In this document: one piece after another, positions 27,333 to 64,000 of the stretch
Numbering within the stretch: position 1 is the first letter of the stretch
Layout: every line of letters begins with the position of its first letter
Assembly (NCBI RefSeq): GCF_030063335.1
Contig: NZ_JASISW010000020.1
Coordinates: 1 to 64,000 of the forward strand
Reading direction: 5' to 3'
Source: Rhodococcus sp. G-MC3
GTDB lineage: Bacteria > Actinomycetota > Actinomycetes > Mycobacteriales > Mycobacteriaceae
Length of the DNA stretch: 64,000 bases
The notes under the pieces: generated by a model
Databases searched by the model: none
What the model was told of the DNA's origin: nothing
The model's input: the letters and a program-made list of their open reading frames with translations, nothing else
Made by a program: the position numbers and the translations under genes

Positions 27333-27394
27333 ATGAATTCGCGCGACTTCCAACGACCGGTTGTAACGCATCACAATTGTCGGCGATAGTCGTA

Positions 27395-27454
27395 GTGGCT
27401 CCACACTGCTGCCCGACCCCCGACCCGGCAGCAGTGTGGAGCCACCTTTGTTTT
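27395..27454 (+). terminator. Intrinsic terminator after the PucR gene
   Basis: A perfect 19-bp stem (27395-27413 and 27427-27445) with a 13-nt loop is followed by CTTTGTTTT, a T-rich tract on the plus strand. Confidence 0.9.
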
Positions 27455-52600: not shown

Positions 52601-52613
52601 TAATCTTCCGCTG
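52601..52613 (+). promoter_or_regulatory. -10 box for a leaderless dcd transcript
   Basis: TAATCT (52601-52606) fits the actinobacterial TANNNT -10 form and ends 6 nt before the GTG start of dcd, so transcription probably begins at the start codon. No Shine-Dalgarno is present. Confidence 0.6.
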
Positions 52614-53191
52614 TGCTGCTTTCCGACCGCGATATCCGTGCAGAAGTGTCCACCGGCAACCTGGGAATCGACCCGTTCGACGCCTCGATGGTTCAGCCCT
52701 CGAGTGTCGACGTGCGTCTCGACAAACTGTTTCGGGTGTTCAACAACACTCGGTACACTCACATCGATCCTTCCAAGCAGCAGGACGAGCTGACGACGCT
52801 CGTCGAGCCTGCGGAGGGTGAACCGTTCGTTCTGCACCCCGGCGAGTTCGTGCTCGGGTCGACGCTCGAGCTGACGACGCTTCCCGATTACCTGGCCGGT
52901 CGTCTGGAAGGCAAGAGTTCGCTGGGGCGCCTCGGGCTACTGACGCACTCCACCGCTGGGTTCATCGATCCCGGTTTCAGCGGTCACATCACGCTCGAGT
53001 TGTCCAATGTGGCGAACCTGCCGATCACGCTGTGGCCAGGGATGAAGATCGGGCAGCTGTGTCTGTTCAGGCTTTCCAGCCCGTCCGAGCATCCGTACGG
53101 CAGTGCCGCGGTCGGTTCGAAATATCAGGGGCAGCGGGGCCCGACGCCGTCGAAGGCGTACCTGAATTTCGTCCGGTCTCCGCTCGACTGA
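52613..53191 (+). CDS. dcd: dCTP deaminase
   Basis: dCTP deaminase of 192 residues (M. tuberculosis Rv0321 is about 190). [20 protein letters not shown] starts the protein, the substrate-binding [12 protein letters not shown] follows, and [20 protein letters not shown] carries the catalytic region with the Glu. In mycobacteria this enzyme is bifunctional, turning dCTP directly into dUMP. GTG start; the transcript is probably leaderless. It lies after tRNA-Gly as in M. tuberculosis. Confidence 0.95.
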
Positions 53192-53300
53192 CTGGTCTTT
53201 CGGTCTGTTTCAAGCCTTTTCGCTGAGCGCATGTTTGGTTTTGTAGTTACACTGAACACTTGCCGACGTGGGTTGGGGCTTACCGGAGCGAGGTCTTCTT

Positions 53301-54770
53301 GTGTCAGCCGTACTCGGCGCATCACTCGGTGTGGGCGGAATACGTGCAGTATCACTCGATCTGTCCGTTGACCCACCCCTGAGCACCGATTCCTCTGCGC
53401 GCATCCCTGATTCCGCGGACGATCCGTGGGGTTCGGTGACATCGGCCGTTCACCGGCTTGCTCGTGAGCAGAATGCGGAGTCCGGCCCCCCTGTTCTGGC
53501 TCTTCGCGACAAGAATCCCATCGAGTCGTATGGAGTCGAGCGGTCCGACGGTCTGGTCCTTGTCTCCGACCTCGGTGCGCAGATCGGAGCGCTCCAGGAA
53601 GCCGGCGACATCACATGCGAGCAGACTGTCGCCCTGTTCGACGTGGGCGCAGGTGGGGTAACCATGTCCATCGTCGACGTCGGCACGGGGAGCGTGCATT
53701 CCTCCAGGCGCAGTACGGTGCTGTCCGGCGACGGGTGTGATGCTGCGTTGTCGACGTTCCTGCTGGAGAACCACGGTCTGCGACCCAGGCTCGACCACGA
53801 TGAACTCGACCACGATGCACTCGATCTGATGGTCGAGAGGGTCTGTTCGGCGAAGGAAACGTTGTCCTCGCTCACCGCCGTCGACATTCACGGCCCGTTT
53901 CACACCGGCAATGTCGTCCTGCATCGATCCGAGCTCGACGCTCTGATTCGTGACGCCGTGTTCGACGCAGTGACCATGGCCGCCGCGATGATCGACGCAG
54001 CGCCCCGCGTCGACGCGCTGTACGCGGTCGGCGGCGGCGCAAACATGCAGATCGTCCGCCAATCGCTGCTCGACGCCCTGACCGTGCCCGTCTTCGTGCC
54101 GCACGAGCCGGAAATGTTGGCTACGCGCGGAGCAGCTGGAATGGCTCGTCGGTATGCGGCGACCGAGGCAGTCGGCACCGCGGCCGGGCGCCCACGGCAC
54201 AGCGACACGTCGTCGAGGCGTCTCACGCGTCTGCGGAGTTCTCGCTATCTTGGTGGTGCCGTCGCGATACTGGTTGCGGGTGGGGTCGCGTTGTCCCTCG
54301 CAGCTGCATCGAGCAGGCAGGACGACCCCGAGGTCGAGTACACACAGGTCATCACCTCGTCTCCGGTGATGCCGTCGGCGTCGGGAGGGGAGATGTCGGT
54401 GCCGCCGGTCGAATCGGAGGATGTCGGGGCCGCCGAGACCACCACCACGATCTCGGACGCGACCACCGAACGAACGAAAATCGCGCGAACCACCCCTCCA
54501 GAGGGGCTTGCCGATACCGGTCGCCGGCGGACAACCACCGTTATGGATCCGTCGCCAACCACGGTCACGGAGGCGTCGCCGACCACGGTCACGGAGGCGT
54601 CGCCGACCACGGTCACGGAGGCGTCGCCGACCACCGTTACGGCGCCGTCGCCGACCACCGTTACGGTGGCGCCCCCGGCACCACCGACGAGCACGAAGGT
54701 CAGCACTGCGACATCGCCGACACGCACGACGTCGCCCGCACCGACTACCCGTAGACCTCGACAGCAGTAG
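53301..54770 (+). CDS. Membrane-anchored Hsp70/actin-fold-like protein
   Basis: Protein of about 489 residues with a degenerate Hsp70 ATPase domain: phosphate-1-like LGASLGVGGIRAVSLD at the start, phosphate-2-like LFDVGAGGVTMSIVDV (about 115-130) and adenosine-like YAVGGGANMQIVRQSLLDAL (about 240-260). No substrate-binding domain follows. Instead there is one transmembrane helix (about 315-336, GGAVAILVAGGVALSLAAA) and a 150-residue Thr/Pro-rich tail with five 8-residue repeats SPTTVTEA, predicted outside the cell. Such Hsp70-like proteins occur in mycolata without a known job. GTG 53301 is preferred (GAGG 7 nt upstream). First of a cluster with two relatives downstream. Confidence 0.85.
   Translation: MSAVLGASLGVGGIRAVSLDLSVDPPLSTDSSARIPDSADDPWGSVTSAVHRLAREQNAESGPPVLALRDKNPIESYGVERSDGLVLVSDLGAQIGALQEAGDITCEQTVALFDVGAGGVTMSIVDVGTGSVHSSRRSTVLSGDGCDAALSTFLLENHGLRPRLDHDELDHDALDLMVERVCSAKETLSSLTAVDIHGPFHTGNVVLHRSELDALIRDAVFDAVTMAAAMIDAAPRVDALYAVGGGANMQIVRQSLLDALTVPVFVPHEPEMLATRGAAGMARRYAATEAVGTAAGRPRHSDTSSRRLTRLRSSRYLGGAVAILVAGGVALSLAAASSRQDDPEVEYTQVITSSPVMPSASGGEMSVPPVESEDVGAAETTTTISDATTERTKIARTTPPEGLADTGRRRTTTVMDPSPTTVTEASPTTVTEASPTTVTEASPTTVTAPSPTTVTVAPPAPPTSTKVSTATSPTRTTSPAPTTRRPRQQ
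54552..54671 (+). repeat. Five 24-bp in-frame tandem repeats
   Basis: Units start at 54552, 54576, 54600, 54624 and 54648, each encoding SPTTVTEA or a variant; the first three are nearly identical at the DNA level. They lie in the tail of the Hsp70-like gene and should vary in number between strains. Confidence 0.9.
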
Positions 54771-54817
54771 ATATCAACACCAGTGATTTATTCACCTGGT
54801 TCCGGCAGACTCGCCTC

Positions 54818-56266
54818 ATGGATTCGATACAGACCGAGCGCGAGGACAAATTCGACGTGGACGCAGGTTTCGTCCTGCCTCCACTGGAACAGGTGACCTC
54901 CGAGGGCGGCTCGGCGCAGACGTCGGAAGTGCAGCTGATCAGTAGTTACTACGACACCGACGATCTCGATCTACTTCGCCGCGGTATCACCGTCCGCAGG
55001 CGACGCGGCGACGCGGATACTGGCTGGCACGCGAAGGTCCCGGCGGAGAAAGCGCGTACCGAGATTCGACTCCCGCTCGGCCAGGGAGACGACGAATCGG
55101 TGCCCGACGAGTTGGCGAGCCTTCTTCGGGGAGCGTCCCTCGGTAAGCCGTTGAGCCAGGTCGCGACTCTGGTCTCGTTGCGCACGGTGCATGTGCTGAC
55201 CGATTCCGATGGTGGTGTGGTTGCCGAGCTCGCCGACGACTCTGTCAGCGTCGACCTGGCAGGAACGGACGGGCATGCATGGCGCGAGCTGGAAGTCGAG
55301 CTCGGACCTTCGGGTTCGGAAGGGGATCTCAAGCGCGTCGGCAAGGTGCTGAAGGCAGCAGGGGCGACGCGCGGGGTGCACCCGTCGAAACTTCACCGCG
55401 CACTTCGATCCGATGAAGTTCCGGCCCACACGGGCGCACTCGGGACCGTCGCCGATTACCTGCAGCAGCAGAGTCAGGCCGTGTTCGCCGGTGATGTGTA
55501 TTTGCGCCGCGGACTCGATTCGATCCATTCCACCCGCGTCGCTATTCGCCGCTACCGAAGCGCCCTTCGTGTGTTCGCGGACTTGTTCGACGAGGCAAGG
55601 GCAACTGGGTTGGACGCCGAACTGTCATGGTACGCAAGCATTCTCGGTGAAGTGAGGGACCGTCAGGTCCAGCGTGCCAGATTCGCAGAGGTGGTACACG
55701 AGCTCCCCGACCACCTCGTGCTCGGCCCCGTTGCTGCCCGTATCGAGAACGATCTCCTTGCCGAGCAGATCCGGTTCCGTGCGGTCGTCGCCGCGGAACT
55801 GGACGGCGACCGCTACCGGGCTCTGCTGGCCGAAATGGCGGCCTGGTCACGCGAGCTACCTGCCTCCGAGGGAGCGACGAAGATCGGCGAGGACGATCTC
55901 GACCGCATGGCGCGCAAGGCTGGGAAGAAGGCAGGCAAGCGCGTCGCCGCGGCAATCGACGGAGGCAACGACGAAGCGTTGCACCGGGCGCGCAAAGCAG
56001 CGAAACGGGCGCGGTATGCCGCGGAACTGGTCAAACCCATTGTTGGCAAGAAAGAGGCGAAGCTGCGGATTGCTCGGTACAAGGGCATCCAGGAGATTCT
56101 CGGTGAGCATCAGGATTCGGTGGTGGCAGCGCACACACTGCTCTTGCTGGGCATGAAGGCCGGCATCGCGGGCGCCGAGAACGGCTTCACCTTCGGGTTG
56201 ATGTACGCCCGGGAAATGCAGGCCTCTGTTGCCGCGCGAGACGAAATATCCAGATACACACTCTGA
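54818..56266 (+). CDS. CYTH-CHAD domain protein
   Basis: Protein of 482 residues joining an N-terminal CYTH domain (about 1-195, with EREDKFDVD, the ELEVELG strand and conserved RRRRGD) to a C-terminal CHAD helical domain (about 205-480, with HSTRVAIRRYRSALRVF and HRARKAAKRARYAAELV supplying conserved His/Lys/Arg). CYTH proteins cut triphosphates or polyphosphate and CHAD domains bind polyphosphate, so a polyphosphate-related role is likely. The gene is on the same strand as the Hsp70-like gene with a 47-bp gap, in a cluster with the Hsp70-like proteins. Confidence 0.92.
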   Translation: MDSIQTEREDKFDVDAGFVLPPLEQVTSEGGSAQTSEVQLISSYYDTDDLDLLRRGITVRRRRGDADTGWHAKVPAEKARTEIRLPLGQGDDESVPDELASLLRGASLGKPLSQVATLVSLRTVHVLTDSDGGVVAELADDSVSVDLAGTDGHAWRELEVELGPSGSEGDLKRVGKVLKAAGATRGVHPSKLHRALRSDEVPAHTGALGTVADYLQQQSQAVFAGDVYLRRGLDSIHSTRVAIRRYRSALRVFADLFDEARATGLDAELSWYASILGEVRDRQVQRARFAEVVHELPDHLVLGPVAARIENDLLAEQIRFRAVVAAELDGDRYRALLAEMAAWSRELPASEGATKIGEDDLDRMARKAGKKAGKRVAAAIDGGNDEALHRARKAAKRARYAAELVKPIVGKKEAKLRIARYKGIQEILGEHQDSVVAAHTLLLLGMKAGIAGAENGFTFGLMYAREMQASVAARDEISRYTL

Positions 56267-56371
56267 ATGCGCGGGTAGCGCGGGATGCGGGTAATCTGAC
56301 CGCCGAACAATCCGACTGATCGCCCGCACTCCGCGCCGAATTCGGATGTCCGACGTCAGGGGTGTCCAAGC

Positions 56372-57262
56372 ATGCGGGTAGCTGTGGGCGTACACGTCAG
56401 TACAAACAACGTCACGGCGTCGCTCGTGGACACGACACTGCCGGAGTTGGGGCCGATCGCGAGCAGAACCGTCGCTGTCGCAACGACGCCCGGTGGGATC
56501 GGCGGCGCCGTCGCCACCGCGCTCGGATTCATGCGAGTGCAGGCGTTGCAGAATGGTCTGCACGTCGTCGGGGCTGCAGTGGTGTGCGAGAACGCGCTGC
56601 AGCGGGAGATCGTCGCGGATACCCTCGCGGAGTCCGAAGCGACGCCCGTGGTGGACATCTTCGACGACCGTCTGTCCGACGTCCACGCCCCGGATGTGAG
56701 TGCGGCACTTCTCGTCGGTCAGACGGAAGTGGTGGCAGCACCGGCGCCGATTCGCGCGGAGCACCGCGGAATCTGGCCTGTTGCTGCGGTGGGCGCGTGT
56801 GTGCTTGCCGCGCTCGGTGGCGTCACGGCATGGGCGATGACGGCAGAGACGGTACCCACGTCCGAGAAACCTCCCTCGGTCGAGATAACCGTTCCGACGA
56901 CGATGCCTGGATCGTCCTCGCCGGTGCGTACATCGATCGCCGTGACTCCGGGGGAGCCGGCGCCCGAGTACCTCGATCCGGAGTTGGTGCCTGACGTCGG
57001 GCAGGTCGTGGTGGAGCCGTCCGTGCCGGAAATCGCCTCGCCCGCCGAGTCGACGCAGGCGGAAAGATTGCGGCCTCCCGCCAGACCAAGCAGGTCGACG
57101 CCGCCGCCGACCCGGACTGCCGAGCCCTCCCCCAGTGACGGAGGCAATGGCGGTGGGTCGGTTCCGAGCGAACCGGAAACGCCGACATCGACGACGTCCA
57201 CACCATCCGCCACCAGCACCACCGAGACGCCTCCCGCCGCTCCGGTGGACCCCGTCGGGTAG
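56372..57262 (+). CDS. Membrane-anchored partial Hsp70-like protein with Pro-rich tail
   Basis: Protein of 296 residues. The first 120 residues resemble only the first lobe of the Hsp70/actin fold (AVGVHVSTNNVTASLVD as a diverged phosphate-1 segment, VVGAAVVCENALQREIV); the phosphate-2 and adenosine motifs are missing, so ATP binding is doubtful. A helix at about 134-156 (WPVAAVGACVLAALGGVTAW) and a 140-residue tail rich in Pro, Ser and Thr follow. The design is the same as the neighbour at 53.3 kb. AGGGG lies 9 nt before the ATG. It may be a nonenzymatic partner. Confidence 0.8.
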   Translation: MRVAVGVHVSTNNVTASLVDTTLPELGPIASRTVAVATTPGGIGGAVATALGFMRVQALQNGLHVVGAAVVCENALQREIVADTLAESEATPVVDIFDDRLSDVHAPDVSAALLVGQTEVVAAPAPIRAEHRGIWPVAAVGACVLAALGGVTAWAMTAETVPTSEKPPSVEITVPTTMPGSSSPVRTSIAVTPGEPAPEYLDPELVPDVGQVVVEPSVPEIASPAESTQAERLRPPARPSRSTPPPTRTAEPSPSDGGNGGGSVPSEPETPTSTTSTPSATSTTETPPAAPVDPVG

Positions 57263-57644
57263 AGCGTAGTTCTGCCCCAGCCCCACTCGAGCGCACGTGC
57301 GTGGGCGCCGAGGGTAGGCGTTCGGCGATAGTGACCGCAGGGCCGAGCGGCCTCGCCGACTCCAGTTCGAGGCCGTCGTGCTTACGGCACAATTCCTTTG
57401 TGTGACACACATGTGAATTATTCTGGACCAGTCACTTTCCGTCGAACATCGGTGGCCGATAGAGGGGCTGTCGGGCTACCATCGGTTTATGAATTCCCGC
57501 GACGATCAGGTCGGGTCCACACCCGTTCATTCGTCGTTCATGTGTTGTATGCGCTGTTCGTAACTCGAGCTTCGTTCTCATGGCACATCTCGAAGTGGTT
57601 GTTACCGAGTCAGATTCGCATCTCATGGAATGTAGGTAAACTCG
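57263..57644. other. Non-coding stretch with a 13-bp palindrome
   Basis: No gene is convincing here. TGTGTGACACACA (57399-57411) is a perfect 13-bp palindrome of operator type. Further on, a 24-codon frame from ATG 57488 has no special features. Confidence 0.5.
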
Positions 57645-57908
57645 ATGAACGATTCTCGGACCAGTATCGACTGGGCAGTCGGAGTTCTCATTGCATTACG
57701 GGGTTATTCCCCGGAACAAGCATTCGAAGAATTGGTCGCGCACAGTTACAATTTCGACGTCAGTTTGCTGCAGTCGGCACGTTCGTTGGTGGCTGTGGCT
57801 CGCGAAGTCGCAGCGGAGTCCTTGCCGGTCACCTCGACCGAGCGTGAGTGGGGCGGACTGCTTGCCGATCGTCGCCCGGTGGACGACGGCATCGAGAACG
57901 TCGCCTGA
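57645..57908 (+). CDS. ANTAR-like small protein
   Basis: Protein of 87 residues whose first 55 resemble the three-helix ANTAR domain: IDWAVGVLIALRGYSPEQAF then EELVAHSYNFDVSLLQSARS. ANTAR domains bind paired RNA hairpins and cause antitermination, usually as the C-terminal part of a signalling protein; here it stands almost alone with a polar tail. The key Ala and Gly positions are kept. Target RNA is unknown; the hairpins just downstream (58028-58046) are candidates to examine. It could regulate the third Hsp70-like gene. Confidence 0.7.
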   Translation: MNDSRTSIDWAVGVLIALRGYSPEQAFEELVAHSYNFDVSLLQSARSLVAVAREVAAESLPVTSTEREWGGLLADRRPVDDGIENVA

Positions 57909-58213
57909 TCCACAGCCCGCCCCTCGGGATCGGCACTTCTGGGCCCTGTCTGCTTGGCCGCGCGTGTGCACGCCACTGAGTTCTTCGGCCGTGGTTCAAA
58001 TCTTTCCGGCGCAAGTTTCAACTTCTTCGGCGCATCGAATGCGCCGCATCGATTCCCTCCCTTTCGGAGTCGCTCCGTCGGAAGAGTTGAACTCGCCGAT
58101 TCGGCGCAAAACAAACCAGTTCCCTGATCAAAAGGACTTAATGCTACCCACGGACGGATTTCGCGGCTAACATCGAACACGTCGGAACGCGAGCGCTGGA
58201 AGTCGGGGAAGCC
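57909..58213. other. Intergenic region with a hairpin
   Basis: No gene seen. CGGCGCAT-CGA-ATGCGCCG (58028-58046) forms a tight hairpin, and TTCTTCGGC occurs twice around it. A possible -10 box, TAACAT, lies at about 58170 before the third Hsp70-like gene. Confidence 0.5.
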
Positions 58214-59176
58214 ATGAGAACGGTGCTGGGAGTGTCTGTCGGCTCTACAACGGCCCGGGCCACAGCCCTCGACGCCGCTGACGATTCGGTGTGTTCGGCC
58301 AGCGTTGCGCGTCCGTTCGAGTCCTCGGGTCATGTGTCGGCAGCTTTGGAGCTGCTGGACTCGATGGCCGTCGCGCACCAGGTGGAGCCTGCCGACTCGA
58401 TACTGGCAGTGCCTGACAATCCTGCTGGGCGGTCGCAGACCTCTGCGTATTCGATGCACCAGGCGGATCGGTTCATGGTGGTGTCCGAGCTCGGTGCCCA
58501 GCTGCGATTTCTGCGCGGAACCGGGCAGCTGGAGGGGCTCCGGACGGTTGCTGTGTGCGATGTGGGTGCCTCGGGAACCACGGTGTCCGTCGCTGATCCG
58601 AAGATCGGGAATGTGTTCTGGTCCGTGCGGACCACCGGCTTCGGCGGAAACATGTGCGACGAGGCCGTGCGTAATTACCTTCTCGCCACATACGGTGCCG
58701 ACGAGTTGGTGTCGAGTGCAACCCTGGACGGACTGGTCGTAGCCATCAGGTATGCACGCGAACAGTTGTCCAGTCTCCGCGTCGCCGAGATTCCCGGACC
58801 GTTCATCGGCGGTCCAGTCCGGTTGTGGCGCAGCACTTTCGAAGACATCGTCGATCGCGGCGTTCGATTCATCGAGGACTGGATAGCGAGCGCCATCGTC
58901 GAAGCGCCGAAAGCGGTCAATGCGCTCGTCCTAGTCGGGGGCTGCGCTCATATCCCTACACTTCGGCGGGTGCTCCGACGCGATTTACGACTGCCGGTGC
59001 TGGTTCCAGCAATGCCGGACTCCCTGACCTCACACGGTGCGGCACTTCTTGCATCCGACGCCATGAGGCGGCGATCCAGTCGTCCGCTCGTTGCCGTCGG
59101 GACCATCGCGGCTCCCGCTCAGGCGGCGTTCGCGTCGGCCGGTTACGACGCGATTCCGCGGCACCGGACGGCATGA
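58214..59176 (+). CDS. Soluble Hsp70/actin-fold-like protein
   Basis: Protein of 320 residues forming only an Hsp70-like ATPase domain. Phosphate-1 is VLGVSVGSTTARATALD, phosphate-2 AVCDVGASGTTVSVADP (about 117-133) and the adenosine segment LVLVGGCAHIPTLRRVLRRD (about 236-255). It matches the domain in the protein at 53.3 kb over most of its length (VVSELGAQLRFLRGTGQLEG against LVSDLGAQIGALQEAGDITC) but has no membrane helix or tail. Substrate-binding and lid domains of true DnaK are absent. GGGGAAG lies just upstream of the ATG. Confidence 0.85.
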   Translation: MRTVLGVSVGSTTARATALDAADDSVCSASVARPFESSGHVSAALELLDSMAVAHQVEPADSILAVPDNPAGRSQTSAYSMHQADRFMVVSELGAQLRFLRGTGQLEGLRTVAVCDVGASGTTVSVADPKIGNVFWSVRTTGFGGNMCDEAVRNYLLATYGADELVSSATLDGLVVAIRYAREQLSSLRVAEIPGPFIGGPVRLWRSTFEDIVDRGVRFIEDWIASAIVEAPKAVNALVLVGGCAHIPTLRRVLRRDLRLPVLVPAMPDSLTSHGAALLASDAMRRRSSRPLVAVGTIAAPAQAAFASAGYDAIPRHRTA

Positions 59177-59278: not shown

Positions 59279-60334
59279 ATGAGTGAGAATGTGGCAGTCA
59301 CCGAGACGTTCGACCCAGCGGAGCATGTCCGTGCAATGGTGGGTCGTCATTACCGCACCGACGACTACTACGAAGTGGGTCGCGAGAAGGTCCGCGAATA
59401 TTCACGGGCAGTACAAGACTTCAATCCTGTGCACTGGGAAGGCGACGCCGCCAAGGCGTTGGGCTACGGCGGTGTGATCGCACCGCTCACGTTCATGTCG
59501 CTGGTGGGTACGCTCGCGCAGCGCAGATTGCTGCAGAAGATCGCGGTCGGGTTCGACCTCAGCCAGATGCTGCAGACCGATCAGGTGCTCGAGTTTCATC
59601 AGCCGATCGTCGCTGGCGATCACTTGTACTGCGATGTCTCCTTGGACTCCTACAAGGAGGTCATGGGCAAAGACATGATGGTCACCAAGAACATCGTGTC
59701 CAACCAGCGCAACGAGCTTGTTCAGACGACGTATACGACGCTCCTCATCGGCCGTGACGGCGATGTCGACAAGGGGATCGTGGACGCTGCCGAGAACCTC
59801 GTCATGCAAGGTGCGACCACTCTCGCGGCGCGGGCCAACGCGTCGGACGAGGATGAAGACGAGCAGGTCGAGCATCCGCAGCTCGTCGTCCTGGACAATC
59901 TGTCTTCGGCCACGGTGAAGTTCGACGACGCCTCTGTCGGAGATGTCCTGCCCAGTAGAACATTCCGTGTCACACGTGGCGATCTGGTCAACTATGCGGG
60001 CGTCGCCGGTGATGCGAACCCGATTCACTGGAGCGAGGAGTTCGCCAAGCTGATCGACCTCGACAACGTACTGGCACACGGCATGCTGACGATGGGCCTC
60101 GGCGGCGGTTACATCACCGAGTGGCTGGGAGATCCGGGCGCCGTCAAGGACTACACGGTGCGCTTCACCGCACCGATCCCCGTCGATTCTCACAAAGCAG
60201 CGGAAATTCAGTTCGACGGCAAGATCAAGTCGCTCGATGCCGAGAGCCGCACCGCAGTGGTTGCGCTGAACGCCACGTTCGAGGGCAAGCGGATCTTCGG
60301 TCACCGAGCGACGGCGACGGTCCAGCTGGCTTGA
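59279..60334 (+). CDS. Fused (3R)-hydroxyacyl-ACP dehydratase HadA/HadB
   Basis: Protein of 351 residues made of two hot-dog domains. The first (about 20-165) is HadA-like (YYEVGREKVREYSRAVQDFN and GYGGVIAPLTF); after an acidic linker (ASDEDEDEQVEHP) the second is MaoC/HadB-like with GDANPIHWSEEFAKLIDLDN and AHGMLTMGLGGGY giving the catalytic Asp and His. In mycobacteria these are separate subunits HadA and HadB of the FAS-II dehydratase for mycolic acid synthesis; several related genera have the fused form. ATG 59279 (MSENVAVTETF) fits. It stands alone, convergent to a glycosidase gene. Confidence 0.9.
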   Translation: MSENVAVTETFDPAEHVRAMVGRHYRTDDYYEVGREKVREYSRAVQDFNPVHWEGDAAKALGYGGVIAPLTFMSLVGTLAQRRLLQKIAVGFDLSQMLQTDQVLEFHQPIVAGDHLYCDVSLDSYKEVMGKDMMVTKNIVSNQRNELVQTTYTTLLIGRDGDVDKGIVDAAENLVMQGATTLAARANASDEDEDEQVEHPQLVVLDNLSSATVKFDDASVGDVLPSRTFRVTRGDLVNYAGVAGDANPIHWSEEFAKLIDLDNVLAHGMLTMGLGGGYITEWLGDPGAVKDYTVRFTAPIPVDSHKAAEIQFDGKIKSLDAESRTAVVALNATFEGKRIFGHRATATVQLA

Positions 60335-60347
60335 GTCGGCCTCTCGA

Positions 60348-61379
60348 TCAAGAACCCTGTACGACGGCGAACGACGGCTTCTGGCTGAAGTCGCTGCGTA
60401 GCAGTCCGTAGTTCTGCTCGGAGTCGCCCAGGTTGGTTCCGGCATCACGGAGCGAGTGCACGAACACCGGTCCGACGTACGGAAGTCGTGATGCCTGCGC
60501 CAGGCTGCTACCGATGATCGCGGCCTGGGCGTCTTCGGAGACCGCCATGGGACCGTTTCCGGTGGGCGCGCCGAGTTCGGTGACCCAGACCTTCTTGCCG
60601 CCGTCGCCGTTGGCTGCCATGGTTCCGTAGGCCTGATCGACCTGTGCCCACTGGCCGTTGGGGTCATTCTCGACGGTGAACGGATATGTATAGGGGTGCA
60701 GTGCAACCGCGTCCATGAACCCGCCGGCGCCTGCCGCGTACATCTGCTGCAGGAACGTCACCGGTGCGGTGGTCCACGTACCGGCATCGATGGTGGTTGC
60801 GAGTCCGGCACTGAGGACGCTCGCACCCGGGTCCGCGTTGTGGATCGCGGGATACGCCGCGCGCAGCAACCCGACGTACCGTGCGGCATCGACGGGTGCG
60901 AAGAAGGTCGGGATGTTCGGCTCGTTCCAGACCTCGTAGGAATCCACGCGGTCACCGAGGTGCGCTGCAGCTGCGCCGGAGAAGGCCCCATAGGTGTTGG
61001 GGTCCAGTGGAACCGCACCCGGCAGCAGCGACGGCAAGGGGGCCTGCGCCCACAACGGCGTGCCCGCGAGAACCGCGAGAACCGAGTATCCCTGCGAACG
61101 TGCAGCATTGACGATTCGATCGGTGTTGCCCCAATCGAACACACCCGGTGCGGTTTCTACCGACGCCCAGTTGACGACCACGCGTACCCAGGACGCTCCG
61201 GCGTCCCGCCCGGCACCGAGTTCGTTGTTCAGGGTTGCGTCGTCCAGCTGTAGAAACGGTGCGCCGCTGGAAAATCCGAGTCCCGACGGCGGAGCCGCCT
61301 GCGCGGTAGGTGCCGTCAGCCCCAGTGCGAGGGCGGATGCAGCGACCACGGTGATCAAGCGGACTGGTGAAAAGTTCAT
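60348..61379 (-). CDS. Secreted clan GH-A glycosidase
   Basis: Exported (beta/alpha)8 glycosidase of 343 residues with a signal peptide (ends PTAQAAPP). SYEVWNEPNIPTFF carries the acid/base glutamate and KVWVTELGAPTGN the nucleophile, the arrangement of clan GH-A (GH5/GH39-like). It may trim or release the polysaccharide made by the coupled genes upstream. The ATG overlaps the glycosyltransferase stop (ATGA), so it is translated with that operon. The precise family is not certain. Confidence 0.88.
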   Translation of the reverse strand: MNFSPVRLITVVAASALALGLTAPTAQAAPPSGLGFSSGAPFLQLDDATLNNELGAGRDAGASWVRVVVNWASVETAPGVFDWGNTDRIVNAARSQGYSVLAVLAGTPLWAQAPLPSLLPGAVPLDPNTYGAFSGAAAAHLGDRVDSYEVWNEPNIPTFFAPVDAARYVGLLRAAYPAIHNADPGASVLSAGLATTIDAGTWTTAPVTFLQQMYAAGAGGFMDAVALHPYTYPFTVENDPNGQWAQVDQAYGTMAANGDGGKKVWVTELGAPTGNGPMAVSEDAQAAIIGSSLAQASRLPYVGPVFVHSLRDAGTNLGDSEQNYGLLRSDFSQKPSFAVVQGS

Positions 61380-62506
61380 GTCGGTGATCCTGAGATTCCT
61401 GGTAGGGACGCGCTGATCAGCGAGGCGACGCTGGTGTGCGGTGCTCGTTGTTCCCAGCGCTCGGAGTTCAGTTCGTACAGCCGCTCGCCCGCTTTGACGG
61501 CGGTGTTTCGGTCCAGCAGATATCGGCGGCATTCGGCGATGAACTCCTCGGGATCGTCGAAGGTCGGGAGTTCGAAGATCGATCCGAGCGATCCGACGGC
61601 AGCAGAAGTCCCGACGACGGGTAGGCCCTTGCTCGCTGCGTCGAGAATCTTGACGCGGACTCCACCTCCGGTGGCGACCGGAGCGATGAGCGCGCGACAG
61701 GTTCCGAGAAATTCCTGAAGGTCGTCGACGAATCCGAGGTCGCGCACACCCGCGGGGTAGGTTGGATCAGGGGCGCCGTCTGCTTTGGCACCGATGATGC
61801 ACAACTCTGCGCCCTCGATTCCCGCAGAGATCTGTGGCCAGTACTCGAGTGCGATCTTGAACGCTTCCTGGTTCGGCGGCCACCCTCGGGTGCCCATGAA
61901 TACAAGCCTTTTCGCTGTTTCGGTCAGATCGAGGCGTGGCGCAGGCTCCAGGGTGAGGTCGATCCACCGCGCATCATGTACTCCGTTGTCACGGTACATC
62001 TCGGCTTCCTCGACGTCGTACGTTCCGACAGCGTCTGCCTTGCGGGCGACTCGAATTTCGTCGCGCAGGATGCGGGGCGACTCGATGCGGCCGATGAGTC
62101 CGCGGGTCACTTTCCAGACCTGAGATTCGGTGTTGACGGTATTGATGACGAAAGGCGACCCGTACTTTTCGGACCGAATGAACGGTTCGGCCATGTAACT
62201 GTGCTCTGCCACATACACATCCGACTCGGATCTCTCGATGGCGTCGACGAATGCATCCACGTCGTATCGGCCGTGGACGATACTGCGGATGGGGTGCAGC
62301 GACTTCAACAGCAGCGATGCGTTCACGCCTGGCTTTTCAACGCGTGTGACATCGGGATCGGGGGAGGGTGCGGTGTCCTTGGACAGGCACAGTGCTCGCA
62401 CTTCGAAAGCTTCACGCGCGAGCTGCATCATCAAACGGGACAGTGCGATATCCCCGCCGTGTTCGGTGACGGGGTCTTTGGACAACAGGAACGTTGCTCG
62501 CCTCAC
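61376..62506 (-). CDS. GT4-type glycosyltransferase
   Basis: GT-B glycosyltransferase of 376 residues from a GTG start. The N-terminal domain contains TEHGGDIALSRLMMQLA, and the C-terminal donor domain GTRGWPPNQEAFKIALEYWP and PVATGGGVRVKILDAASKG, close to the GT4 (Glyco_trans_1_4) signature. It should lengthen a cell-surface polysaccharide. The start overlaps the flippase stop (GTGA) and its stop overlaps the glycosidase start, so the four genes are coupled. Confidence 0.9.
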   Translation of the reverse strand: MRRATFLLSKDPVTEHGGDIALSRLMMQLAREAFEVRALCLSKDTAPSPDPDVTRVEKPGVNASLLLKSLHPIRSIVHGRYDVDAFVDAIERSESDVYVAEHSYMAEPFIRSEKYGSPFVINTVNTESQVWKVTRGLIGRIESPRILRDEIRVARKADAVGTYDVEEAEMYRDNGVHDARWIDLTLEPAPRLDLTETAKRLVFMGTRGWPPNQEAFKIALEYWPQISAGIEGAELCIIGAKADGAPDPTYPAGVRDLGFVDDLQEFLGTCRALIAPVATGGGVRVKILDAASKGLPVVGTSAAVGSLGSIFELPTFDDPEEFIAECRRYLLDRNTAVKAGERLYELNSERWEQRAPHTSVASLISASLPGISGSPT

Positions 62507-63663
62507 GAGTACACCTCTTCTTTGGCAGGCTCACGATAGAGAGCTCGGATGAACCACACGAGTAGTACGGCGTCGGTAACGACCGATGCGATCGCGGCAC
62601 CGACGGCGCCGAGGGGGAACAGGCAGAAGATCAACACCATCTTCAGCGGTGCAAGTGTGGCCGCGGCCAAGACGCGGGTGCGGTCGCGATGCTGCAGGTA
62701 GAGCACGGTGGTGAATACGTAGTTCATCACCCGCATGACGACGAAGAAGGACATCACCACGAGGGCTCCGGCGATCTCGTTCGATATAGGTGTGAAGAAC
62801 ACAGCGACGCCGGCGACGAGGACCAACGATCCGGCAGCACAGGCGAGCACGATGGTGTGTTTCAACGCAGGTCCCGCGGTAATGCTGCCGTCGGCGAGAC
62901 GCAGTTTCTCGTGGAACGTGTGGCCGAACGACTGCCCGATGAACGCGACGGCCCACGCGGTGACGGATGCGACGGAGTAGTAACCCGCGATCGTGCTGTC
63001 GGTCAGGTAGCCGAGCAGTAGTACATCGCCTTGGACATAGATGGCGTTGGCGAGGTTCTCCGAGAACAGCATCGAGATCTCGCGCCACGAGCCAGGTACG
63101 CGTGGGCGCGCAACTCTTGCCTGTACGACGGCGGCGACGGCGATGACGAAGTACGGTGCAACATAGAGCAGGCTGGCCACGAGCAATGTCGGTTCGGCGG
63201 TAGTGAACAGGGTGGTAGTGAACAGGTAGGCGGTGGCAAGGATGATGCTCGACGCCTGCCGCAGCGTGTCCATGCGCTGGGTGATATTGGGATGACCGTC
63301 GCGGAGAGCACGACTCTTGTACGCGTTGAACGTCATCTCGCCGCCGGCGACGACGAGGGCGAACCATGCGATGTAGTTGACCTCGATCAGGCACGACCCC
63401 AGCACAATCAGTACTATGCCGATCAGTGCGCGGCTTGTGCGTTCGCCCAGATAATCGTCTTCGTCGACGCGGATCGACCGAACACCGAACGGGTGATCGA
63501 GCGGCGCGGCGACGATCGCCGCGAGCGCGAACGCCATTGCGTAGTGCCCGTAGTCGGAGATTCCAAGTTGGGCGATGAGCGCGACGGTCCACAGCAGACC
63601 GATGCCGCGACCTCCGTAGGTCCACAGCGCGGCGATGCACGCCTTCATCAGGTTGGCGTTCAT
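62503..63663 (-). CDS. Polysaccharide flippase (Wzx-like)
   Basis: Membrane protein of 386 residues with about 11-12 helices, with GRGIGLLWTVALIAQLGISDYGHYAM at the N-terminus shown here by its ends GRGIGLLW and SDYGHYAM, the usual start of oligosaccharide exporters. It should carry the lipid-linked repeat unit across the membrane for the polymerising genes. ATG 63663 (MNANLMK) overlaps the upstream glycosyltransferase stop. It is unlike the flippase at 6.4 kb in detail, so the two likely move different glycans. Confidence 0.88.
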   Translation of the reverse strand: MNANLMKACIAALWTYGGRGIGLLWTVALIAQLGISDYGHYAMAFALAAIVAAPLDHPFGVRSIRVDEDDYLGERTSRALIGIVLIVLGSCLIEVNYIAWFALVVAGGEMTFNAYKSRALRDGHPNITQRMDTLRQASSIILATAYLFTTTLFTTAEPTLLVASLLYVAPYFVIAVAAVVQARVARPRVPGSWREISMLFSENLANAIYVQGDVLLLGYLTDSTIAGYYSVASVTAWAVAFIGQSFGHTFHEKLRLADGSITAGPALKHTIVLACAAGSLVLVAGVAVFFTPISNEIAGALVVMSFFVVMRVMNYVFTTVLYLQHRDRTRVLAAATLAPLKMVLIFCLFPLGAVGAAIASVVTDAVLLVWFIRALYREPAKEEVYS

Positions 63664-64000
63664 CCTCGACCGACGCCTCGAAGGGAGGCCGTCGGGTTGG
63701 TGACTCGGGCGGCTGCCAGCGAAGGGGTCACTTTCCACGCCGACAAGAAATCGTCGACGACGAGCATCGGTGTGTTGGCCGTCCGAAGCGTTTCCACTTC
63801 GCGGCGAAGCCTGGCGAGTGCGACGGTGTCCGTGACGAGAGTCGCTGCAGCATCGGCGACGTCGTCGATTCCTCCGTCGACCACCACCGCGCCGCCGTCG
63901 GACTCGGCCAGAGCGCCGTACTTCATGCAGACGATGGGTGTCTGGTAGGCAATAGCGCGCGTCACCACCGAGGATGCGGGGAAGGCGTCGCCATAGATCG
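63660..64000 (-). CDS. Glycosyltransferase, C-terminal part (cut by window end)
   Basis: The visible 113 codons begin outside the window. They read IYGDAFPASSVVTRAIAYQTP, then GALAESDGGAVVVDGGIDDVADAA, which is the nucleotide-sugar end of a GT4-like enzyme with the final helix ending RGVGRG. The open frame continues past 64000. The stop overlaps the flippase start, so it heads the polysaccharide operon seen here. Confidence 0.75.
   Translation of the reverse strand, partial: IYGDAFPASSVVTRAIAYQTPIVCMKYGALAESDGGAVVVDGGIDDVADAAATLVTDTVALARLRREVETLRTANTPMLVVDDFLSAWKVTPSLAAARVTNPTASLRGVGRG

Follow-up and report, generated by a model that had tools for sequence, protein, structure and literature searches.

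Three genes for degenerate Hsp70-type proteins, two of them with a predicted membrane helix, lie together beside dcd in the window, the 64-kb stretch of Rhodococcus DNA analysed here, and the question raised by this locus is what such proteins do and to which cellular process they belong. Five genes, designated A to E, occupy the + strand between two conserved flanks. Gene A (53301..54770) encodes an Hsp70-type nucleotide domain followed by a predicted membrane helix and a Thr/Pro-rich tail, gene B (54818..56266) a CYTH-CHAD protein, gene C (56372..57262) an isolated ASKHA domain I with a predicted membrane helix and an acidic tail, gene D (57645..57908) a stand-alone ANTAR protein of 87 residues, and gene E (58214..59176) an Hsp70-type nucleotide domain of 320 residues without a membrane helix. 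Upstream lies dcd (dCTP deaminase, 52613..53191, + strand), the conserved neighbour of gene A, and downstream a fused hadAB (mycolate dehydratase, 59279..60334, + strand; start inferred from the family match). For gene A, the GTG at 53301 matches the start in orthologues and the longest open reading frame starts at 53268. A role in anti-phage defence was rejected, as PADLOC gave no match for any of the five proteins. An Rfam search of the 64-kb window found one tRNA and an F6 sRNA only, the latter at 27392-27448 (RF01791, 60.2 bits).

The fold of E was examined by structure prediction. The model showed an Hsp70-type nucleotide-domain fold whose last 29 residues are disordered, and the best 50 structural matches listed were all Hsp70-type, with Ssz1, a solved non-hydrolysing Hsp70, at the top, tied (Z within 1) with canonical Hsp70s. 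For A, whose head covers residues 1 to about 295, the assignment is based on Pfam HSP70, which scored 36.3 bits for A and 35.8 bits for E (cut-off 20.6), both matches being confined to the latter half of the nucleotide domain. The A7 profile, searched against the sequences of solved structures, also found Hsp70s among the 60 matches listed (136 sequences, with a best E of 2.7e-18). The substrate-binding domain is absent, since E stops after the nucleotide domain and A runs into its helix and low-complexity tail. In the tree, A and E form one clade with copies from another genus (G067), with a support of 100/98. Because the tree has 14 open forks, long branches and crudely trimmed rows of L103, its use was limited to this clade and to the clade that holds the own-genome head with a YibE neighbour.

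An alignment with the DnaK of the same genome was made for twenty heads, namely eight A/E, seven paralogues from that genome and five dcd-linked heads of other genera. The result showed that the phosphate-1 Asp and the catalytic Thr of DLGGGT were each lost in all 20 heads; the phosphate-2 Asp and the adenosine GG were retained throughout, and 18 of the heads also keep the connect-1 Glu. Judged from these motifs, a nucleotide pocket may remain in the heads and binding is possible, but a DnaK-like ATP cycle is unlikely. A reading as a nucleotide-driven switch or chaperone, in which the heads cycle ATP like DnaK and thereby shift the position of the tails, is in line with the Hsp70 nucleotide-domain fold and the retained motifs. 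However, the two catalytic residues are gone throughout, the substrate-binding domain is absent and C has no domain II, so that such a switch appears improbable. It was rejected as first choice on the motif loss, which makes a non-hydrolysing scaffold the likelier role for the heads. The sequence-only reading had proposed a membrane-tethered nucleotide switch built on degenerate heads without peptide-binding domains; the degeneracy, the missing domain and the tether are supported, but the switch is not.

An actin-like cytoskeleton, or a divisome/elongasome adaptor whose heads would polymerise under the membrane as FtsA does, was also considered. The actin-type fold, the membrane tether and matches of E to MreB and PilM in Pfam/NCBIfam point in this direction, but these matches remained below the cut-off of 27 bits (PilM_2 25.5 bits, MreB_Mbl 22.2 bits; FtsA was unlisted), the best 50 structural matches were Hsp70-type without exception, and a half head such as that of C could presumably only cap a filament. 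We therefore give little credence to this explanation.

The head of C was found to be ASKHA domain I alone (residues 1 to about 122, with the order b-b-b-a-b-a-b-a), followed by a linker and the helix. Domain II is absent and with it the phosphate-2 and adenosine motifs, which had already been recognised as missing from this protein. No model in Pfam or NCBIfam matched C, its profile gave a single row (E 0.56) when compared by sequence with solved structures, and its sequence resemblance to A and E is weak (hhalign probability 6%, over the first 55 residues). A second case of the same architecture was seen in one of ten ini loci drawn, where a tethered half head shares 40% identity across 156 residues with the front half of the full head next to it. 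That all three proteins belong to the Hsp70/actin fold had been claimed at the outset, with a fold check set beforehand as the point on which the claim could fall. The check was run and the folds of E and C agree with Hsp70/actin: A and E were recognised by Pfam HSP70, E also by its model, and C as domain I.

Hydropathy analysis predicted one membrane helix in A (residues 317-335, about 54249-54305) and one in C (residues 137-155, about 56780-56836). The tail that follows is Thr/Pro-rich with a basic end in A (154 residues) and acidic and Pro/Thr/Ser-rich in C (141 residues), in accordance with the earlier description of one helix and a long tail on each protein. The charge before the A helix was +2 to +8 in 22 of 23 A rows; in the exception, L074, the highest hydropathy peak lies elsewhere and a weak helix (1.48) is found at the expected place. 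The last 60 residues of A were positive in 19 of the 23 rows, and two loci have a short A tail, of 27 and 50 residues. The tails of C were negative in 29/29 rows, with a median of -18. By the positive-inside rule, A and C would have their heads in the cytoplasm and their tails outside, the topology of C being less sure because many rows show a zero or negative charge before its helix. E is predicted to be soluble, as its highest hydropathy peak across seven rows was 1.86, a value that overlaps the weakest C helix (1.77), and in the E of the window this peak falls within a helix of the folded domain. E is thus a bare domain akin to A, as had been suggested.

The conservation of the gene set was determined in 28 distinct named Rhodococcus/Rhodococcoides loci, drawn from 97 pattern matches. 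The results showed that C and E were present in all 28 loci, A in 24, B in 22 and D in 16, always downstream of dcd, with hadAB adjoining in 22. A, C and E occurred together in 24 loci and all five genes in 16; A was absent from four loci and D from 12. Six loci consisted of dcd, A, C and E only, without B and D, which indicates from gene order that the A-C-E trio is the core and that B and D are removable add-ons. The same arrangement was found outside these genera: in G067, dcd is accompanied by two tethered heads, one full and one half, and by a full head that is free, and one further full head lies upstream of dcd. The refuting condition set at the outset, that the genes would not stay together in related genomes, was checked in this way and did not apply. 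The five genes are not one indivisible set.

These data bear directly on a polyphosphate-responsive five-gene module, in which the CYTH-CHAD protein would bind or cleave polyphosphate and the ANTAR protein would adjust RNA. In favour of such a module, B was present in 22/22 loci outside the dcd-A-C-E type and D was strongly conserved in the loci that carry it. Both are nevertheless missing from six of the 28 loci, all of which keep A-C-E, and D from 12. In six genomes of the dcd-A-C-E type (G002, G005, G015, G016, G023 and G094), one CYTH-CHAD protein each, with 35-39% identity, is located elsewhere; D-like ANTAR proteins were represented by weaker matches in G002 and G016 and were not found at E 1e-6 in G005, G015, G023 and G094. 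The module was rejected on this synteny and is regarded as very unlikely, and the earlier proposal of polyphosphate sensing is not supported.

B and D themselves are as first described. B scored 169.4 bits for Pfam CHAD and 32.6 bits for CYTH, and the ExExK motif of CYTH and both His motifs of CHAD, which we take to be the catalytic motif of the former and the binding motifs of the latter, were invariant in 23/23 copies. D scored 34.4 bits for ANTAR against a curated cut-off of 27.3. A simple scan for dual-hexaloop ANTAR RNA targets found none in the cluster or upstream of D and E in nine loci, a result of little power given that shuffled sequences average 0.08; the RNA targets of D may lie elsewhere. 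Upstream of D, a direct repeat at 57400..57418 (+ strand, 11-base period) resembles in its spacing the MtrA consensus as given in part of the published record (PMC13189361, PMC6265350). It is the one match in 64 kb with two or fewer mismatches (0.12 expected), and its core TGA-N6-TGTGAATT was invariant in nine aligned loci, the first half being variable. This candidate MtrA site is put forward as a lead only. Between the repeat and D, a short open reading frame ending in CCMRCS (57489..57563, + strand) looks like a cysteine-rich leader peptide; a similar frame was present in 5 of 17 loci checked. B and D are neighbours of the trio, and any functional link with it is putative.

To place the trio among its relatives, an E profile (A1) was searched in 151 genomes of the same bacterial family, representing 31 genera. 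At E 1e-8, matches were obtained in 101 genomes and 21 genera, a count that could include DnaK. As the DnaK of the own genome scored 38.5 bits (E 1.9e-10) with this profile, and 58.2 bits with A7, the stricter count at a best E of 1e-12 or below was used, which lies above DnaK level and comprises 97/151 genomes and 20/31 genera. Linkage was determined in 35 genomes hand-picked from the 101 with a match. Among the matches listed, 18 of the 35 genomes and 12 of 21 genera had a head no more than 10 kb from dcd, compared with 0.57 genomes expected. Fifteen of the 18 score above DnaK level; the other three (G049, G063 and G064) score below it, and their gene maps show a helix and a tail. A composite of 13 maps consists of dcd, a sugar transferase, UDP-glucose dehydrogenase (identified from its start, in 10 of the 13), a tethered head, YibE/F and an aminotransferase, the domains being checked for single proteins of two loci only (L105 and L107). 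In the own genome, on another contig, the tree neighbour of the dcd-linked heads adjoins, by eye, YibE-like and aminotransferase-like genes.

Other head paralogues (L053:5018-7094, L092 and L094) lie beside a low-molecular-weight tyrosine phosphatase, the domain of which was checked in L053, and the L094 paralogue also lies beside a Wzz-type protein. Downstream of hadAB in the window, seven of ten scanned proteins were matched, among them glycosyltransferases, two GDP-mannose-dehydratase-type proteins, a hexapeptide transferase and an acyltransferase. The glycosyltransferase and nucleotide-sugar genes at 60348-63738 of the window and in L111 likely form a surface-polysaccharide cluster.

The own genome gave at least 11 matches to the head profile, dnaK among them, and its dnaK lies about 12 kb from an ini-linked head. 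These many paralogues and the lost catalytic residues would suit decaying dnaK duplicates of little function in a stable chromosome region. But the reading frames are open, A, C and E stay together in 24 of the 28 loci and in another genus, selected motifs are kept in 20/20 heads, and helix and tail are retained over deep divergence, all of which makes decay hard to credit.

A second linkage was found with the IniR/IniB envelope-stress locus known from mycobacteria. IniB N-terminal domains were detected in 25 of the 35 genomes, 24 of them over the cut-off. Among the matches listed, 23 of these 25 genomes had a head no more than 3 kb from IniB (0.12 expected), and 22 also had an IniR-like gene within 8 kb. 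The label IniR-like is used because the own-genome copy (422 bits) and most genomes fall below the NCBIfam IniR cut-off of 750 bits, which was passed in 2 of the 35 genomes. Ten ini loci (L055 and L113-L121) out of the 23 IniB-linked genomes were drawn, and in all ten a head with a membrane helix directly precedes the IniR-like gene on the same strand, 10 bases or fewer apart or overlapping in nine (the tenth being L120). In the own genome this head is at L055:9822-11672. In the tree, the A-C-E trio is a subfamily distinct from the ini-linked heads. Two more short helix-and-tail proteins (L055:5294-7578) lie beside the own-genome IniR-like gene and gave no Pfam/NCBIfam match at E 0.01.

Chance was rejected as the cause of these linkages (18/35 against 0.57 expected for dcd and 23/25 against 0.12 for IniB). 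Gene neighbourhood does not amount to function, and some of this linkage may reflect inherited position, since in several genomes dcd, iniB and dnaK lie in one chromosome region. The association of relatives with dcd, IniB and IniR-like genes, among the matches listed, suggests from genomic context that the trio belongs to the envelope, and the early idea of a link to wall state gains from the fact that relatives sit in surface-glycan and IniB/IniR-like loci. Among the open-access listings searched, no description of the head family or its ini linkage was found, and absence there is not absence in print; the word Hsp70 does not occur in the text of the IniR paper (PMC5760070).

Taken together, these results lead us to propose, at about even confidence, that A, C and E are a membrane-linked assembly of three proteins in which non-hydrolysing Hsp70-type heads serve as transmembrane scaffold or sensor subunits. 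The full head of A and the half head of C each continue into one hydrophobic helix and a long tail of low complexity, whereas E is a full head on its own; the three genes are conserved as one unit downstream of dcd. E would bind to the A and C heads at the inner face of the membrane, and bound nucleotide, if any, would stabilise the heads instead of driving a cycle. The tails, acidic in C and with a basic end in A, could touch each other or the wall or surface glycan, and the state outside would be relayed inward through contacts between heads, so that the trio might act as a membrane scaffold or sensor for the state of the wall or surface glycan.

This scaffold or sensor reading draws on the ini-locus context and on two precedents. 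Ssz1 of the yeast ribosome-associated complex is, according to part of PMC7083937, a non-canonical Hsp70 that binds ATP without hydrolysing it and acts as a partner; the same account has it eukaryotic, ribosome-linked and in possession of part of the substrate-binding domain, which the heads described here lack. A and C, unlike Ssz1, carry a membrane helix. In that respect they resemble GspL/EpsL of type II secretion, described in part of PMC3815138 as a scaffold with a cytoplasmic actin-type domain, one membrane helix and a part outside, which self-associates and binds a cytoplasmic partner. The periplasmic region of GspL binds GspM within a secretion machine (same part of PMC3815138), whereas no such region was seen in A or C, whose tails look disordered and whose heads are Hsp70-type. 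With DnaK and other Hsp70s the heads have the nucleotide-domain fold and the adenosine motif in common.

The rest of the family probably has the same role towards different partners, the clearest case being the IniR-like regulators of envelope stress. As far as described in part of PMC5760070, IniR is a signal-transduction ATPase, passage of trehalose through the membrane is probably not required and the iniBAC sensing system is concluded to be periplasmic. In genera where IniR-like genes have a tethered, non-hydrolysing head next to them, this head fits the role of a membrane link. The same portion of PMC5760070 gives the small iniB* as the sole gene between iniR and iniBAC in M. tuberculosis, M. 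bovis and M. smegmatis, so that IniR of these mycobacteria apparently operates with no head gene in this position, and the claim is limited accordingly.

More tentatively still, and with considerable doubt, the family as a whole might be a class of one-pass receptors, present in mycolate-containing bacteria, that use dead Hsp70 heads, in some cases paired with half heads of domain I only, to relay the state of the wall or its glycans across the membrane, with an IniR-like partner where present and, in A-C-E, in a stand-alone form through the soluble head. In the ten loci drawn, the head with a membrane helix that directly precedes the IniR-like gene may be the missing link in iniBAC sensing, a question that becomes testable in the genera that have this head. 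If the proposal is true, Hsp70 heads, even half heads, have been reused as transmembrane scaffolds.
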